Position numbers and translations under genes: made by a program. A stretch of DNA of 52,308 nucleotides from assembly GCA_003586005.1 (NCBI GenBank), contig NSKI01000017.1:1-52308 (forward strand), written 5' to 3'. The notes below the pieces were generated by a model that worked only from the letters and a program-made list of their open reading frames with translations, did no database searches and was not told the DNA's origin. This document shows positions 5,714 through 25,541 of this stretch, one piece after another; the stretch's first letter is position 1, and each line of letters starts with the position of its first letter. The stretch is from Haloplasmatales bacterium 4B (GTDB lineage Bacteria; Bacillota_I; Bacilli_A; Haloplasmatales; Haloplasmataceae).

Positions 5714-8221
5714 TTATGCTCCGCAGCATTGTTTGTATTTTTTACCACTTCCGCATGGGCAAGGATCATTTCGTCCAATTTTATCCTTACGAACAGGCTG
5801 TTTCCTATTTTCCTCTTTACCTGATTTTGCGGCAATAGGTTTTGCCACTTGCTCACGTTGTAAGTTTTCTTGCACTTGAGCTCTAATAATATATTGTAAT
5901 ACTTCTTCATTAATTGCCTTAATCATATTATTAAATAATTCAAAGCCTGCTTGTTGGTATTCAAGCAGTGGATTAGTTTGTCCATAAGCAACTAAGCCAA
6001 TACTTTGTCTCAATCCATCCATTGTATCGATATGAGCCATCCATTTTAAATCTACAATTCTTAAAACAATTACTTTCAGAAATTCTTGAAATACCTCTGG
6101 TTCAAAAATCTTTTGTTTTTCGCTTAACTTAGCCAATGCTTCTTTATGTAACAGTTCATAAATCGCTTCTCTATTAAGTTTTTCTATTTCTGGTAACTTA
6201 AAAAAGTTTGGGCCAAAAACATTATTATTAAAATATGTTACTAATTGTTTGATTCCTTCTTTATGGACTGTGTCTTCTTTAGTATTTTCAACTTGTAAAT
6301 ATTTATTTATAAGATTATTAATTGCATCTTCAAACATACTTTCAACAATCGGTTTAATATTTTCATCTGTTAAAATTCTATAACGTTGTCCATAAATAAT
6401 TTCCCGTTGTTGACCAATAACTTCATCATATTGAAGTAACGTTTTACGACTATCAAAGTTGTTTCCCTCAACTCGCTTTTGAGCTGATTCTACTGAACGA
6501 CTTATAAGACCATGTTCAATAGCTTGATCATCCTTCAAACCAAATCTTGCTAACATTCCTTGAAGTCTATCAGAACCGAATCTTCTTAACAAATCATCTT
6601 GTAATGATAAATAAAACCTTGAAAAACCAGGGTCACCTTGACGTCCTGAACGGCCACGTAACTGGTTATCAATACGACGAGACTCATGACGCTCAGTACC
6701 GATAACAGCTAGTCCGCCGAGTTCTTTTACACCTTCACCTAATTTAATATCAGTACCACGACCAGCCATATTTGTGGCAATCGTAACTGAACCTTTTTCT
6801 CCAGCATGCGCAATGATTTCAGCTTCACGTTCATGGTTTTTGGCATTCAGAACGTTATGTTTAACACCTTTTTTTCGTAAATATTCAGATATTAATTCTG
6901 ATGTTTCTACTGCAACTGTACCTATCAACATTGGTTGACCAATTTTATGTCTTTCAACAATATCCTGAGTTAATGCTTTAAACTTAGCTTCCATATTGGC
7001 AAATATTAAATCATTAGCATCATTTCGGACAATTGGTTTATTTGTAGGTATTTCAACAACATACATATTATAAATATTTCGGAATTCTTCTTCCTCTGTT
7101 TTTGCTGTACCAGTCATCCCAGATAATTTATTATACATTCTAAATAAATTTTGGAATGTAATAGTTGCTAGAGTTTGCGTTTCTTGTTTTATTTTAACTG
7201 ATTCTTTAGCTTCAACAGCTTGATGTAATCCTTCACTCCATTGACGTCCATGCATTAAACGCCCTGTAAATGGATCAACGATAATAACTTCTCCTTCTTG
7301 GACAACATAATCAACATTATTTTGCATTACAATATTAGCTTTTAAAGCATTATTTATATGGTGCACTAATGTTGCATGTTGAACATCAAATAGATTTGTG
7401 ACATTAAAGGCTTTTTCAGCTTTTTCAATTCCGTCCTCAGTTAATTGCACATTTCTCGTTTTAATATCATGATCGTAATCTTCTTCTTTTAAATTTTTAA
7501 CGAACATATCAGCATGTTTATACAAATTAGCATTTCTTTTTTGCCCACCTGATATAATAAGTGGTGTTCTTGCCTCATCTATTAAAATTGAGTCAACCTC
7601 ATCAATAATCGCAAAATTCAGTGGCTTTAAAACCATATCTTTTTTATAAATAACCATATTATCTCGTAGATAATCAAAACCTAATTCATTATTAGTCGTA
7701 TAAGTAATATCGCAATGATATGCCTCTCTTTTTTCTTCTTTACTCATTGAATTTAAATTTAAACCAACAGTTAATCCTAACCATTGATATAATTCACCCA
7801 TCTCACGAGCGTCACGACTAGCTAAATACTCATTAACAGTAACAATATGCACACCTTGACCTGCCAAAGCATTCAAATAAGCTGGCATTGTTGATGTCAA
7901 TGTCTTACCTTCACCAGTTTTCATTTCTGCTACGTTCCCATAATGCATAACTAATCCACCAATTAATTGCACATAAAACGGCTTCAAGTGTAGTACTCTT
8001 GTCGCAGCTTCTTTTACAACTGCAAAGGCTTCAACTAAAATATCTTCTATCGTTTCTCCGTTTTTTAACCTGTTTTTGAATTCAATAGTTTTATTTTGAA
8101 GTTCTTCATCAGTTAACTGACTCATTTCATTTTCTAAGTTAACTACTTTATCAGCGATAGTCTCTAATCTTTTCATTTCTCTATATCCTGAGTCAAAAAT
8201 CTTCTTTAGAAAATTTGCCAT
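5714..8221 (-). CDS. secA: Preprotein translocase ATPase SecA
   Basis: SecA drives unfolded preproteins through SecYEG using ATP. It is full length at 835 residues. Walker A is MKTGEGKT (about 100-107), Walker B is IIDEVD, the helicase motif [10 protein letters not shown] is present, and the C-terminal zinc tail [16 protein letters not shown], which binds SecB or ribosomes, ends the protein. The start ATG follows AAGGAG. The order hpf...secA-prfB is that of Bacillus, but here a SUKH gene, sbcCD and a transposase relic lie between hpf and secA. Confidence 0.98.
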
Positions 8222-8631: not shown

Positions 8632-9177
8632 TCACATTTTTTTTACTTTAGTAAATCCATCATGGAAATTAATTACTGTTTCTTCTAACCAATCATAAAA
8701 AGATAGATTGCATAGCTTAAAATTATTAGTAACTTTCTTTTTAAGATACACTTTATTAGCTTCATTTTTATTAAAATAGAAACTATCTCCATTAGAGCTA
8801 GCTGCAAATTTATAAAAATGTTTATTTTTTAATAGTAAATTTTCCATAATTATATCAATAGGTTGAAATACATCTTTAAAACTATTTCTAACATTTTTTT
8901 TACTTAAACCTAATACACAAATATTACTTTCAAAAATATTCATCCCATTATAAGAAAACAAAAAGTCTTTATATTCTATAGGTAATTTTAAATTTAATAA
9001 AGTTTCTATTTTTTTTATCTCTGGATAATTTAAAGGAGGAAATAAGCTATGCAAATAAGTGAATGGTGAAAAATTATTGTTGTTACAAATTAAAATTGTT
9101 CCATTTTTTAAATAAACTTTCGCACATTCCTCATTTTGATTAAGTTTTTCCACAATTTTACATAATCGTTCGTTCAT
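8632..9177 (-). CDS. SMI1/KNR4 (SUKH)-family protein
   Basis: The protein has 181 residues. The core matches the SUKH fold: an acidic helix (YPEIKKIETLLNLKLP), then IEYKDFLFSYNG, and near the end the FYDWLEETV helix. In bacteria this family is mainly immunity proteins that block toxins of polymorphic or contact-dependent systems; others are stand-alone. No toxin gene is next to it, so it may be an orphan immunity gene or act otherwise. The frame can start at 9216, but ATG 9177 has AGGTG 5 nt upstream and is preferred. It breaks the normal hpf-secA linkage and sits beside a transposase relic, consistent with acquisition. Confidence 0.7.
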   Translation of the reverse strand: MNERLCKIVEKLNQNEECAKVYLKNGTILICNNNNFSPFTYLHSLFPPLNYPEIKKIETLLNLKLPIEYKDFLFSYNGMNIFESNICVLGLSKKNVRNSFKDVFQPIDIIMENLLLKNKHFYKFAASSNGDSFYFNKNEANKVYLKKKVTNNFKLCNLSFYDWLEETVINFHDGFTKVKKM

Positions 9178-9330
9178 AAAATCACCTACCGATATAGATA
9201 TTATTAATTTTAACATATAACTTATCTTATAAGGTAGTATATATAAAAAGTAGTGTTTTCACTCGCATAGGAGACAAAATATGAAGTAATTTATAAGAAG
9301 AAACAAAATTTTCTTCCACTCTTTATCAAT

Positions 9331-20793: not shown

Positions 20794-21254
20794 TTTCGAT
20801 TCTCCTTTTAGTATAAATAACTCTACTTTCGCAAGGGAAAAATTTAAATTTACTTTTATATATTAGAGTAATGATTTTTATAATGACAATATTATGTGTT
20901 ATACTAATTTTCCTATTACTATTGAACTTTCTTCTAATAGTGAATTTATAAAAAAACTAGCATTACGACAGCTGAGTTAATAAGCTTACAAAAATTATAT
21001 CATTATAATTATAATCTGTAAAAACAATTTTTTTCTATAAAAAGACAATAAAAAGAAATGATAAGTTATCATTTCTTTTTATCACCTTTTCATAAACCCA
21101 TTTATACTAAATACCACTAATATAACCCACTTATATTATACCCCATAATCTAGTAGATTTTAAAAATATATAAAAAAGCTAATTTTAAGTCCTAAAAAAG
21201 AGTAAACTTAACACTTTTTATATTATTTTTTAAAGAAAATGCCAATTTATATTA
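20794..21254. other. Intergenic region with a strong hairpin
   Basis: 461 bp. The 31-nt hairpin at 21050-21080 is listed apart. A 26-codon plus-strand frame at 20871-20951 encodes only hydrophobic residues and has a poor ribosome binding site, so I do not call it. I find no secreted-peptide gene after the regulator at 21255, and the DUF1146 promoter is not clear. Confidence 0.5.
21050..21080 (-). terminator. Terminator after regulator copy 1
   Basis: Arms AAAAAGAAATGATAA and TTATCATTTCTTTTT are perfect inverted repeats separated by one base; with a few loop bases unpaired this leaves a stem of about 14 bp with A/T ends on both strands. Confidence 0.75.
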
Positions 21255-22511
21255 TTAATCATACAAATCTTCATAAAAGGATAATAGAACAATTTTCATG
21301 GCTTTCATTGTTTGAAGTTTTGGTATGACTTTTTTGAGAGCAAATCTACGACTATAATTTGGATTATTAAGTTTGTAATTATAATACCGGAAAATATTTT
21401 GTTCTATTTCAACTGAAAATTGATAATAATCTTTGCCTTTTTCTATTAATTCAATATATATTTTTTTATTACTTCCTATTTTTGTATAAACAAGCAGTAG
21501 ACGGTTTATAATTTTTAACATTTTATCACTTTCAAAACAACAATTTAAAGCTAAATTAAAAAAACTTAACGATTGTTCATATTCATAAGTATATATCTTC
21601 TTCAAACCCCAATTAAAGTGAAGCGAATGCAATAAGTGTTTTAATTTTTTATCATTATCTGCTAGATATATGGACTCATCATAATATCTTTTAGCAAAAT
21701 TATGAGAGTTAATCAGCAAATAATATGAAGATAGAAGCATATATATCTGTAATAACCTCATTTTATTATTTGTGTTAATATAATGTTCTTCTAATTCATT
21801 ACATATTTTCAAGACTTCAAGGTAATTAAATTCCTTCATATATACCCTGATTAAAGGCAAATAACTTAATCCACCGCTGATATTATGTTCTTTGTATAAT
21901 TCAATAGCTTCTAAACAATATGTTTTTGCTTCTTCAATAATATGAGTTTGATAATAACAATAAGATATTGTATGTAAAGCTATTGCTTTAAATATTCCTT
22001 CATAAACACCAATGTAATTAACTAATTTTTCTGTTGTTTTTTTATCCTTTTCTAATTTTATAAACACCCTATAACTATAAATCAAAAGTTCTAAGTACAT
22101 ACTAGCAATACAATCACGATCAAAATTTAACTCGTATAAATGATCTATAATCTTTATGTCAAGATTATAATCTCCATATTCTATTACCTTTAGTAACTGA
22201 TAAGCCAAATCATTCAGAACATTAATATTTTCTCTATGATCTTCACCTTCAATTTGAAAAAACAAATTCAATTTATTTAAGAATAAGTGATAAACATAAT
22301 CTTCTTTTATAAAATCTGATTCGAGCTTAGTTAATGTATGATAATGACAAATTTGATTATTTTCACAAAATCTAACTTTTGTAAATGGATTCCCATCAAT
22401 ATAATTGGTTTTTTTAAATTCGTTTAGACGTTTTATTCTAGTCTCACGTATAATAATTCCGAGTTGAGTTTTTACTTGTTCAGATATACTATAATCTTTT
22501 ATTTCTAACAT
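21255..22511 (-). CDS. HTH-TPR (RRNPP-like) regulator, copy 1
   Basis: 418 residues, one of three tandem paralogues. The N-terminal ~80 residues look like an XRE-type DNA-binding domain with an insertion: QLGIIIRETRIKRL, then FTKVRFCENNQICHYHTLTKLE, where the last part resembles the recognition helix and closing helix of PlcR/NprR-type proteins. The remaining ~330 residues are helical repeats with TPR-like spacing, and the C-terminus carries the shared ending SFYEDLYD. The size is that of NprR (about 420). Such proteins bind short exported peptides and control transcription. ATG follows ATGGTGATT. No peptide gene follows it. A near-copy of the operator palindrome of the peptide gene lies just upstream at 22529-22544. 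Family placement is inference. Confidence 0.65.
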   Translation of the reverse strand: MLEIKDYSISEQVKTQLGIIIRETRIKRLNEFKKTNYIDGNPFTKVRFCENNQICHYHTLTKLESDFIKEDYVYHLFLNKLNLFFQIEGEDHRENINVLNDLAYQLLKVIEYGDYNLDIKIIDHLYELNFDRDCIASMYLELLIYSYRVFIKLEKDKKTTEKLVNYIGVYEGIFKAIALHTISYCYYQTHIIEEAKTYCLEAIELYKEHNISGGLSYLPLIRVYMKEFNYLEVLKICNELEEHYINTNNKMRLLQIYMLLSSYYLLINSHNFAKRYYDESIYLADNDKKLKHLLHSLHFNWGLKKIYTYEYEQSLSFFNLALNCCFESDKMLKIINRLLLVYTKIGSNKKIYIELIEKGKDYYQFSVEIEQNIFRYYNYKLNNPNYSRRFALKKVIPKLQTMKAMKIVLLSFYEDLYD

Positions 22512-22607: not shown

Positions 22608-23846
22608 TCATAATTCGTAAAGATCTTCATAAAGTAACAAGGCAAAATCAATTCTTGTCGGATCAGACTTTAAAACTGGCAAAACATTTTCGATAGCGTA
22701 CTTTCTATAATACATGTTTTTTTCGTGTTTATATTTAAAGTACTTAAAAGTGATTTGATCTATTGAATTTCCATGCATCAAACAATCTTTTCCTTCGTCT
22801 AGAAACTTATTATTCATTTCATTATTTTTCAATTTTGAATTTAAAAATAATAATATGTTTATAGATTTAAATTTTTCAGAATCATTATTACTTTTTGCAT
22901 ATGCTAAATTCATAAAATTATAAGCTTCTTTAATTAAAATTTCTTTTATACAAAATAATCCCATATTATAATGAATTGAAAATTCAAAACGCGATAAATA
23001 ACTGTATGAATCTATGAAGTTAATTGTTTTATAATAATTTTCAAAAGCTAAATTTTTCGCATTTATTAAAAAATAGTATTTAGACAGGTAGCTATAAGTA
23101 TATATCAATCTCTTGTAATTTTTTGTTTCATTAAAGAAAAGTTCCATTTCAATGCATAAGTTTAACAACTCTAAATATCTATGCTTCACAAAATAAAGTG
23201 ATATAAAGCAAGTTTTTATCACACCAACACTTACCTTGTATTTTTCATATACTTTATCAGCTATTATAAAACATTTTTCTGCTTCATCTAAATTTTTGGT
23301 ATTTAGGTAATAAGTTCCTAAACTATGATGTAATAACCCTTTTGGCAGCCCTATAAAAAAGGCTTTGTATATTTGTAATTCTTCTACATCCTTATCTTCT
23401 ATTTTTTTAACCAAAAATAAATTATAATGAAAAAGAATTAATTTATAAAATACTTGTGTAATACAATCATCATTAAAGTTAATAGAATCTAATTTTATTT
23501 TTATGTTTTCTATTGTTTCAATATTTAAATATTCGACTGCTTTTAGTAATTCATATATAATTTTCTCTATCATCTTCATGTCTTCATTATGTTTTTTGAT
23601 TGATACTTTAAATGATAATCCTAATTTACTCAACAACATATAATACACTTTTGTGTTTGTTATATAATCATTTTCTAAAGTTGAAAGTGTATTATAATGA
23701 CATACCTTATTGTTTTCACAAAAATTCGATTTAGTATAAGGGTTAATTAATAGTCCTTGCTTTCTAGACTCCTTAAGCTTCACCAGTCTGTTCTCTCGTA
23801 TAATATAACCTAATTGTTTCCTAATTTCTATCGGTAAATTCTCCAT
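22608..23846 (-). CDS. HTH-TPR (RRNPP-like) regulator, copy 2
   Basis: 412 residues, the middle and most diverged of the three paralogues. The N-terminal domain keeps QLGYIIRENRLVKL, FCENNKVCHYNTLSTLE and the VYYMLLSKLGL helix; the C-terminus keeps the YYRKYAIENVLPVL and LYEDLYEL signature. The middle is a chain of helical repeats (for example the AEKCFIIADKVYEKY and YSYLSKYYFLINAKNLA units). The ribosome binding site is weak (TTAGGTTGTGAAGTATA). A terminator separates it from the peptide gene upstream, and only 96 bp without a peptide frame lie between it and copy 1. It may respond to the same peptide, to another one, or be an orphan receptor. Confidence 0.63.
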   Translation of the reverse strand: MENLPIEIRKQLGYIIRENRLVKLKESRKQGLLINPYTKSNFCENNKVCHYNTLSTLENDYITNTKVYYMLLSKLGLSFKVSIKKHNEDMKMIEKIIYELLKAVEYLNIETIENIKIKLDSINFNDDCITQVFYKLILFHYNLFLVKKIEDKDVEELQIYKAFFIGLPKGLLHHSLGTYYLNTKNLDEAEKCFIIADKVYEKYKVSVGVIKTCFISLYFVKHRYLELLNLCIEMELFFNETKNYKRLIYTYSYLSKYYFLINAKNLAFENYYKTINFIDSYSYLSRFEFSIHYNMGLFCIKEILIKEAYNFMNLAYAKSNNDSEKFKSINILLFLNSKLKNNEMNNKFLDEGKDCLMHGNSIDQITFKYFKYKHEKNMYYRKYAIENVLPVLKSDPTRIDFALLLYEDLYEL

Positions 23847-23908: not shown

Positions 23909-23963
23909 AAAAAAGACCAATAGTATATCTCTTAAATTATGATATATTATAATGGCCTTTTTT
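23909..23963 (-). terminator. Terminator between the peptide gene and regulator copy 2
   Basis: On the minus strand AAAAAAGGCCA pairs with TGGTCTTTTTT (one G-U pair), continued by TATAATATAT/ATATACTAT. The wobble pair exists only in the minus-strand RNA; the plus-strand RNA would have a mismatch, so it is oriented to end the peptide transcript. Confidence 0.75.
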
Positions 23964-24048: not shown

Positions 24049-24183
24049 TTAACTAAATACCGAAAATGGTAAAGGTAACATTTCCACATTTATATCATTT
24101 TGAACAGCTATGTTAAAAGTTACACAAAGAAATAACAATAAAACCATAATTAAAACAAAAAATATACTTTTTAATTTTTTCAT
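24049..24183 (-). CDS. Putative secreted quorum-sensing propeptide (PapR-like)
   Basis: 44 codons. The N-terminus is a clear export signal (MKKLKSIFFVLIMVLLLFLC), followed by a short polar part beginning QNDINVE and a C-terminal tail LPLPFSVFS. This is the layout of PapR/NprX-type signalling precursors, and the tail resembles the PapR core LPFEF. GAGGAGG lies 8 nt before the ATG. It directly follows regulator copy 3 on the same strand, as papR follows plcR, has its own promoter with a palindrome, and is closed by a terminator. Too short for usual gene calling, but the binding site, signal, promoter and terminator together make it a real gene. Peptide processing and receptor pairing are inferred. 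Confidence 0.72.
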   Translation of the reverse strand: MKKLKSIFFVLIMVLLLFLCVTFNIAVQNDINVEMLPLPFSVFS

Positions 24184-24209
24184 TTTACAGTCCTCCTCTT
24201 TTTTTATAT

Positions 24210-24238
24210 TTTATAACAAAAACCGAAAAAAAGGGCAA
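24210..24238 (-). promoter_or_regulatory. Promoter of the putative signalling-peptide gene
   Basis: Minus-strand TTGCCC (24238-24233), 17-nt spacer, TATAAA (24215-24210). The imperfect -35 together with a palindrome just upstream suggests activator dependence. Confidence 0.6.
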
Positions 24239-24245
24239 AACTTAT

Positions 24246-24261
24246 AAAAAGTATACTTTTT
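24246..24261. promoter_or_regulatory. Perfect 16-bp palindrome, candidate operator
   Basis: AAAAAGTATACTTTTT, centred about 50 bp upstream of the expected transcription start and 7 nt from the -35 box. This is where activators usually bind. A second palindrome, TCGTACGA, lies at 24266-24273. Confidence 0.5.
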
Positions 24262-24287
24262 AGTCTCGTACGACCACGATTTTTGGA

Positions 24288-25541
24288 TTATTTATATAAA
24301 TCTTCATAAAAAAACAACAAAATTTCATTTTTACTACGATCATCTGATAACATAGGTATTATTTTTTCATGAGCATATTTACGATAATATTTGCTTTTTC
24401 TAAATTTAAATCGAAAATATTTAAATATATTTTGATTTAATTCATTACTGTAAGAAAAATCCTTTTCACCTTCATTATAATATTTATTAATTTCTTCTTC
24501 AGAATAATTAAGTTTTGTCATTAAAATAATTATAAGATTTATTGCATGTAATTTATTAGAGTTATTACCGCAAAAATTAAATGCAATTATAAAATTATCT
24601 AGTGCTTCTTGTAACCTATATTCCTTGAAACACCTAAATCCCCAATTGTAATGTAAAGAAAATTTATAACGTTCTAAAGTATTATCCTTATTAACTATCT
24701 CAATTGCTTTATCAAAATAGTCTTTAGCAACATCATGTGCATTTATTAAGAAATGATATTCTGACAAATAGTTATAAACATGCATTAATCGCTTATAATT
24801 ATTAGTTTTTTTATAATAAACTTCCATTTCATTACATAATGGGACAGACTCATAATAGTTATTGATATGTACATACACACTTATAAGATATGAACTTATT
24901 AATCCTTTACTAATATTATTTTCATTATAAATTTTTTGTGATGTTAAAAAATGTATTTGCGCCCTGTCAATCTTTAATTGATTCAAATAATATATTCCTA
25001 AACACTGGTGAGCCAAACCTTGATAAACACCAGTATAAAATCTGGTAAAGTTATTCATAAATTCAATTGTTGTTTCATTAACCGTTGTTACTAATTGTAA
25101 TTTTATAAACAATTTAATTAATTCTAAATGAAAATAAGCAATTACGTCATTTTTATAATCAATGTTTTTTATTTCATTTAAAATTTCCATTGCGAGTTCA
25201 TCATTAATATATTCTCCTGCGTCTAATACTCTAATAATTAATGATTCTAAGTAATTCAAATTTTTTTTATGATTTGTTCTTGATATTTGATAGTAGTAAC
25301 CTAATTTGTGTAACAGTTTGTGATAAACTGCATCTTCCTTTATCAAATCAGTCTCTAGTTTTGTTAATGTGTGATAATGGCAAATTAAATTATTTTCACA
25401 AAAATTTTCTTTAGTAAATGGATTGTTTTCAATGAGATTACTATCTTTATATTTTTGAAATTTAATTTTTCTTTTTTCCCTAATTATACAACCAAGTTGT
25501 TTTTTTATTTCATCTGAAAGTGCATAATTTTTTATTTCCAT
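24288..25541 (-). CDS. HTH-TPR (RRNPP-like) regulator, copy 3, putative peptide receptor
   Basis: 417 residues. XRE-like N-terminal domain (QLGCIIREKRKIKF, FTKENFCENNLICHYHTLTKLE, VYHKLLHKLGY), then TPR-like helical repeats to the end (for example YKRLMHVYNYLSEYHFLINAHDVAKDYF, read as two helices), and the family ending FFYEDLYK. Length and order fit NprR/PlcR-type regulators, which bind re-imported peptides through the TPR groove and DNA through the HTH. The peptide gene follows it by 104 bp, which makes this copy the likely cognate receptor. It has AGGTGAG before the ATG and a TATAAT at about -10. It lies right after the atp operon terminator. The peptide link is inference. Confidence 0.7.
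   Translation of the reverse strand: MEIKNYALSDEIKKQLGCIIREKRKIKFQKYKDSNLIENNPFTKENFCENNLICHYHTLTKLETDLIKEDAVYHKLLHKLGYYYQISRTNHKKNLNYLESLIIRVLDAGEYINDELAMEILNEIKNIDYKNDVIAYFHLELIKLFIKLQLVTTVNETTIEFMNNFTRFYTGVYQGLAHQCLGIYYLNQLKIDRAQIHFLTSQKIYNENNISKGLISSYLISVYVHINNYYESVPLCNEMEVYYKKTNNYKRLMHVYNYLSEYHFLINAHDVAKDYFDKAIEIVNKDNTLERYKFSLHYNWGFRCFKEYRLQEALDNFIIAFNFCGNNSNKLHAINLIIILMTKLNYSEEEINKYYNEGEKDFSYSNELNQNIFKYFRFKFRKSKYYRKYAHEKIIPMLSDDRSKNEILLFFYEDLYK

Follow-up and report, generated by a model that had tools for sequence, protein, structure and literature searches.

Described members of the RRNPPA class pair a receptor of 250-500 aa that carries a TPR peptide-binding domain with an adjacent gene, at a distance of -60 to 400 bp, for a Sec-secreted propeptide of 10-100 aa (PMC10075063). 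Such propeptides characteristically keep a short conserved core within a variable tail (PMC9765709, PMC10075063). In the PlcR-PapR system of the Bacillus cereus group, the peptide gene is under the control of the receptor, the dispersed regulon is rich in exported proteins, and PapR7 has the sequence ADLPFEF (PMC6568020; PMC2464732). The ComR-ComS/XIP system of streptococci combines an XRE HTH with a pseudo-palindromic box that has inner GACA/TGTC sequences, includes its signal gene in its own regulon, and has the mature peptide LPYFAGCL (PMC5131891). A 2022 survey that describes the architectures of the RRNPPA subfamilies assigns these to Bacillales and Lactobacillales (PMC9765709); systems of this kind have been reported from clostridia as well (PMC7376267, PMC7206700).

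The window analyzed here, a stretch of 52,308 nucleotides from a member of the Haloplasmataceae, very probably encodes an RRNPP-type peptide quorum-sensing circuit that forms a subfamily of its own, found in Haloplasmataceae only, with an autoactivating pheromone and a dispersed regulon. The kind of system is known; what is new is its lineage, the Haloplasmatales, which NCBI places in the Mollicutes. Our literature search found no report of such a system for Haloplasmatales, and Haloplasma goes unmentioned in the main texts of the two large RRNPP surveys, with automatic listing in supplements or subscription papers being possible. An earlier, sequence-only reading of this DNA had placed the gene pair in a lineage different from those of PlcR and NprR; this is borne out by the nearest named relatives, which are Haloplasma contractile and Haloplasmataceae bins.

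The locus, which is flanked by atpC (25642-) and DUF1146/spoIIQ (20578-, 19808-), occupies the minus strand and comprises three tandem regulators of 412-418 aa (receptors A, B and C), with the peptide gene situated between A and B, 104 nt after A (Table 1). The sequence-only reading had described receptor A as being followed by a 44-codon gene with a GAGGAGG ribosome site, the tail LPLPFSVFS and a terminator, and each of these elements is present. Adjacent peptide genes were also sought for receptors B and C, and none were found. The gap between B and C measures 12-18 nt in three relatives (G007, G002 and G004) and 60-100 nt in G001 and the window. The HTH regions of the three receptors are alike, and the TPR helix at residues 249-265 is the best conserved in the A clade (94%, versus 62-69% in B and C). 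Judged by this conservation, the helix is a candidate peptide contact of receptor A.

Table 1. Features of the locus and of related loci. Positions without a locus handle are those of the window (genome G000). Relatives were read at L004 (G007), L005 (G001), L006 (G004), L007/L019 (G006) and L011 (G002).
Feature	Position	Strand	Remarks
Receptor A (copy 3 of the sequence-only reading)	24288..25541	-	417 aa; XRE-like HTH (about residues 10-80) and TPR superhelix
Operator part 1, palindromic element TGGTCGTACGAGAC	24263..24276	-	family consensus GTCTCnTAnGAGAC
Operator part 2, AT element TATACTTTTTATA	24243..24255	-	7 bp after part 1
-10 element TATAAA of peptide promoter	24210..24215	-	without consensus -35
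Ribosome binding site GAGGAGG	24192..24198	-	ahead of ATG of peptide gene
Predicted pheromone precursor	24049..24183	-	44 aa, MKKLKSIFFVLIMVLLLFLCVTFNIAVQNDINVEMLPLPFSVFS; KK start, hydrophobic export segment, tail LPLPFSVFS
Codons of conserved core P-L-P-F	24064..24075	-	within peptide gene
Terminator hairpin of peptide gene	23909..23963	-	55 nt, U run, -14.9 kcal/mol, z -3.8
Receptor B, paralogue of A	22608..23846	-	39% identity to A
Receptor C, paralogue of A	21255..22511	-	38% identity to A
Short transcription unit between receptor C and DUF1146	21000-21150	-	counterparts L005 9755-9930, L006 9210-9365, L004 about 6880-7000
Second operator, GTCTCCTATGCGAG then TGAAAACAC then TACTTTTTATA	9242..9275	-	upstream of SUKH gene; 25.5 bits, E 2.3e-5; outside R1 training
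SUKH (SMI1/KNR4) superfamily protein, predicted target	8632..9177	-	181 aa, adjoins secA
Peptide orthologues	L004 3925-4086; L005 6363-6509; L006 6369-6539; L007 1179-1388; L011 2853-3008		48-69 aa
Distant receptor paralogue	L106 3166-4410 (G000:C14); L107 3773-4987 (G003)		surroundings conserved
Empty site of G003, atpC	L166 1141-1536		DUF1146 70 bp on
Divergent operator of G001	L156 4053-4999 (G001:C4)		yabP-yabQ on one side, ABC-transporter gene cluster on the other
RHS-repeat protein gene of G001	L158 (G001:C22)		1480+ aa; operator-bearing
Secreted protein paired with membrane protein	L155 2884-4514; L150 497-859		426 aa and 117 aa; operator-bearing
MreB/Mbl-like genes of G004	L069 1478-2760 and beyond (G004:C53)		three genes
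Protein without Pfam match	L146 2168-2722 (G000:C19)		184 aa
Genes behind best held-out operator of G000	L145 4577-5193 (G000:C37)		protein without clear start codon, and 122-aa membrane protein

Two further observations concern the surroundings of these genes. The short transcription unit between receptor C and DUF1146, about 100-120 nt long, seems to be conserved; it has a TATAAT element, a start like A.GTGGGTTA, no clear reading frame and then a terminator, and the AT element of the operator described below is present in the G001 and G004 units. It might encode a small RNA that belongs to the circuit. Separately, no secreted-type small frame was found next to the distant receptor paralogue or its G003 counterpart.

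Structure prediction agrees with the TPR/HTH fold that had been proposed for the long protein. AlphaFold2, applied to 15 receptors, predicts receptor A to be all helical (pLDDT 93, pTM 0.87), and every one of the 27 PDB matches to this fold at E≤1e-3 is an NprR or a Rap protein, with NprR ranking first. Residues 1-90 are predicted to form four helices, for which the top fold matches are XRE-type HTH proteins (HipB, C.BclI and ComR). The matches of this HTH fragment reach a probability of 0.99 with E>0.1, weak E-values for a query this short; the ComR DNA-binding domain matches the receptor A N-terminus at 2.0-2.3 Å. At the level of sequence, Pfam detects TPR_2 in receptor A (E 8.6e-6, just under the curated cut-off) and no HTH, NCBIfam provides no assignment for the receptor, and no RRNPP chain is retrieved at E≤10 when PDB sequences are searched with a profile. 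A viral fold library gives unspecific TPR proteins only. Because Pfam, NCBIfam and the PDB profile yield just weak or generic TPR matches, we rejected a sequence-based assignment to a known family, and homology to any of the seven named subfamilies (PlcR, NprR, Rap, AimR, Rgg, ComR and PrgX) is not detectable by sequence. Since sequence search finds no RRNPP protein, the kinship to PlcR and NprR is one of fold and layout, not of membership in a named subfamily. The earlier placement in the PlcR/NprR class is to be read in this sense: fold and layout agree with it, and sequence profiles do not.

Receptor A and its homologues (410-420 aa) fall within the size range of RRNPPA receptors, and the TPR domain as well as the size and distance of the adjacent propeptide gene also correspond to those of the class, as does the N-terminal XRE HTH to that of its DNA-binding members. 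Across 395 class and 392 phylum genomes, sampled evenly, the receptor family is confined to these relatives. A mobile-element origin was rejected because collections of phages, plasmids and viral contigs yielded no receptor relatives.

The peptide gene is kept along with its receptor. In five relatives, the frame directly follows receptor A and has a strong ribosome site, and its product combines a basic N-terminus with a hydrophobic segment; the G002 contig stops before A, so that only the peptide gene and receptors B and C fall on it, and in G006 receptor A is found with the peptide as the sole receptor matched. In total, six Haloplasmataceae genomes retain a small signal-peptide-like frame at this place, all with the core P-[LIM]-P-[FY] (PLPF in the window, G007, G004 and G002; PIPF in G001; PMPY in G006). 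Thus, the small secreted-type frame that the sequence-only reading would have sought after homologues is kept at all homologous loci. Each of the six precursors joins a basic start, KK in most, to a 16-residue segment with a mean hydropathy of 2.7-3.4. AT-rich as it is, this DNA contains many short frames, but it is exceedingly improbable that this one is a chance ORF: place, architecture and core are the same in six genomes, ribosome sites are strong, and dN<dS holds in all 15 pairs of peptide genes (0.33 versus 1.32 for G007-G002), with dS saturated in some pairs. The motif codons vary synonymously among the six genomes, and the joint frequency of the core in shuffled tails is about 8e-14, a rough value that treats orthologues as independent.

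One might instead regard the 44-codon gene as encoding a small membrane protein or another short protein outside signaling, with PxPF serving that function. A hydrophobic N-terminal half whose cleavage site is putative, tails of differing length and a varying distance from the core to the C-terminus would all suit such a protein. We nevertheless consider it highly unlikely, given the strict linkage to a receptor with an NprR/Rap fold, the shared operator carried by the promoter, and the presence of an export segment together with a short conserved core inside a variable tail. For the favored pheromone precursor, the sequence-only reading had located the mature signal in the last 5-10 residues. 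The core ends 2, 4, 8, 12, 12 and 27 residues ahead of the C-terminus in the six precursors; it lies within the last 8 residues in the window and the last 6 in G001, in keeping with that placement, and starts farther in for G004 (12), G007 and G002 (16) and G006 (31), which do not fit. Given this variable position, the mature signal does not have to coincide with the final 5-10 residues, and processing may remove residues on both sides of it.

The peptide promoters carry a composite operator that is newly recognized here and goes beyond the previously noted gene pair. Its arrangement is rigid: the palindrome GTCTCnTAnGAGAC is followed after 7 bp by TATACTTTTTATA and, in most sites, by a TATAAT-like -10 element about 27-29 bp further on. 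The composite is present in all five peptide promoters with readable sequence, several of which have a degenerate left palindrome half, and about 21 bp, or two helical turns, separate the centers of its two parts. In G001, a single palindrome with an AT element on each side serves two divergent promoters. A PlcR box was also considered and rejected, as its matches in the window are at chance level and none falls in the peptide promoter between the -10 and the palindrome.

The promoter that had been ascribed to the peptide gene exists in this form, of activator type, and a generic sigma-70 scan finds no promoter-like site on the minus strand between receptor and peptide. Specifically, the operator is located at about -75 to -41 with near-constant spacing to the -10, and the -35 is unrecognizable. 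An operator upstream of the polymerase core contacts, combined with a good -10 but a missing -35, has the layout of an activator site. This layout argues against a pheromone circuit in which A is a repressor, or is inactivated by peptide, and the operator silences its targets until peptide arrives. RRNPP members differ in regulatory sign, and the sign of regulation is unreadable from sequence alone, but we judge repression quite improbable and favor activation.

A pattern allowing three mismatches is near chance level in its total count, and we therefore used a calibrated, sequence-only operator model (R1) trained on the five peptide promoters together with nine sites of G001. Scores reach 66.8 bits in receptor-bearing genomes. 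The maximum among 54 receptor-less genomes is 21.1 bits; within the family, the receptor-less G003 (13.1 bits) and G005 (11.6 bits) stay lower still. Held-out sites score 41.6 (C37), 34.8 (C19) and 25.5 bits (window 9205-9274) in G000, 34.4 bits in both G002 and G007, 32.5 bits in G001 (C57), 30.0, 25.8, 24.5 and 24.3 bits in G004, and 23.7 bits in G006. A match at G000:C47 (21.9 bits, without a -10) was discounted as too near background. Neither operator nor receptor occurs beyond this one family, and common descent therefore accounts for part of their association; G003 and G005 are its only within-family negatives.

At the empty site of G003, DUF1146 follows atpC with no receptor or peptide between them. 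This genome lacks the operator together with the A-peptide-B-C module, and G006 has A, the peptide and the operator with no match to B or C. Both cases speak against the operator being read by another protein (B, C, an unrelated regulator or a sigma factor), with A merely neighboring one target. Although A, B and C share a similar HTH, such that B and C could bind the same operator, we regard this alternative as unlikely; receptor A would be the operator-binding protein.

The operator also marks genes away from the locus. A second site in the window precedes a SUKH gene, and all five receptor-bearing genomes that have this gene (G000, G001, G002, G006 and G007) have it with an operator, whereas G003 has the gene and lacks the operator. 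In G001, the divergent operator stands between the spore genes yabP-yabQ and an ABC-transporter gene cluster, and another operator accompanies the RHS-repeat gene. In G006, a secreted protein with a matrixin-like stretch lies behind a weak operator (E 0.002). In G004, the 30.0-bit site precedes the three MreB/Mbl-like genes and might tie the signal to the cytoskeleton. The 34.8-bit operator of G000 is directly followed by the protein without a Pfam match, and the membrane protein behind its 41.6-bit operator resembles ones behind G001 operators. Elsewhere, the operator-bearing pair of a secreted and a membrane protein could be a toxin/immunity or bacteriocin pair.

We hypothesize that receptor A is a cytoplasmic HTH-TPR regulator, and that the gene after it yields a precursor of 44-69 aa with an N-terminal export segment, from which a peptide around the P-x-P-F/Y core would be released outside. 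The peptide would then be re-imported, probably by an Opp-type permease, and would bind the TPR groove of A; OppA-type binding proteins (PF00496) occur in all eight family genomes, receptor-less ones included. Loaded A would bind the composite operator upstream of the -35-less promoter to activate the peptide gene, a positive feedback like that of PlcR and ComR, as well as a dispersed regulon. Besides the SUKH-family gene, this regulon would comprise, varying with the species, secreted proteins, the RHS-repeat protein, ABC transporters, yabP-yabQ and the mreB cluster. A tentative and rather doubtful extension is that the A-peptide-B-C cassette is a decoder with one signal and three receptors, where A, B and C read one PxPF pheromone with different thresholds or targets, coupling population density in this lineage to competition genes (SUKH, RHS and secreted proteins), with sporulation (yabPQ) and the MreB cytoskeleton added in some of the species.

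These findings suggest density control of competition genes and, in some of the species, also of sporulation and MreB genes. More generally, where a receptor cannot be linked to known ones by sequence homology, its quorum regulon can still come to light through a conserved operator. For tests, the locus offers short peptides as candidates, a defined promoter, G003 as a relative with a naturally empty site, and predicted targets that can be named.

Compared with described systems, the circuit resembles Rap-Phr and AimR-AimP in its TPR superhelix and in a small exported-type precursor encoded by the receptor, with the Rap of phage phi3T and cellular Rap among the fold matches. Rap has no HTH to our knowledge, whereas receptor A is predicted to carry one, and A is without relatives in phage, plasmid and viral collections. 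Like ComR-ComS/XIP, the system has an XRE-like HTH, a palindromic box and a signal gene predicted to belong to its own regulon; unlike it, the palindrome here is joined by a second, rigid AT element, and the TPR part is nearer to NprR/Rap than to ComR. PlcR-PapR likewise has the peptide gene after the receptor and an LPF-type peptide core, and its receptor-controlled peptide gene and dispersed regulon with many exported proteins parallel what is predicted here. The operator here is not a PlcR box (wTATGnAwwwwTnCATAw), however, and receptor A is longer than PlcR, which has about 285 aa. NprR-NprX of the Bacillus cereus group differs in sequence, with about 13% identity to receptor A in the fold alignment and no sequence-profile match, and we know of no PxPF in NprX. 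Even so, NprR is the best fold match (4gpk, 5dbk), and the two systems share a receptor composed of an HTH and a TPR superhelix with a neighboring peptide gene.
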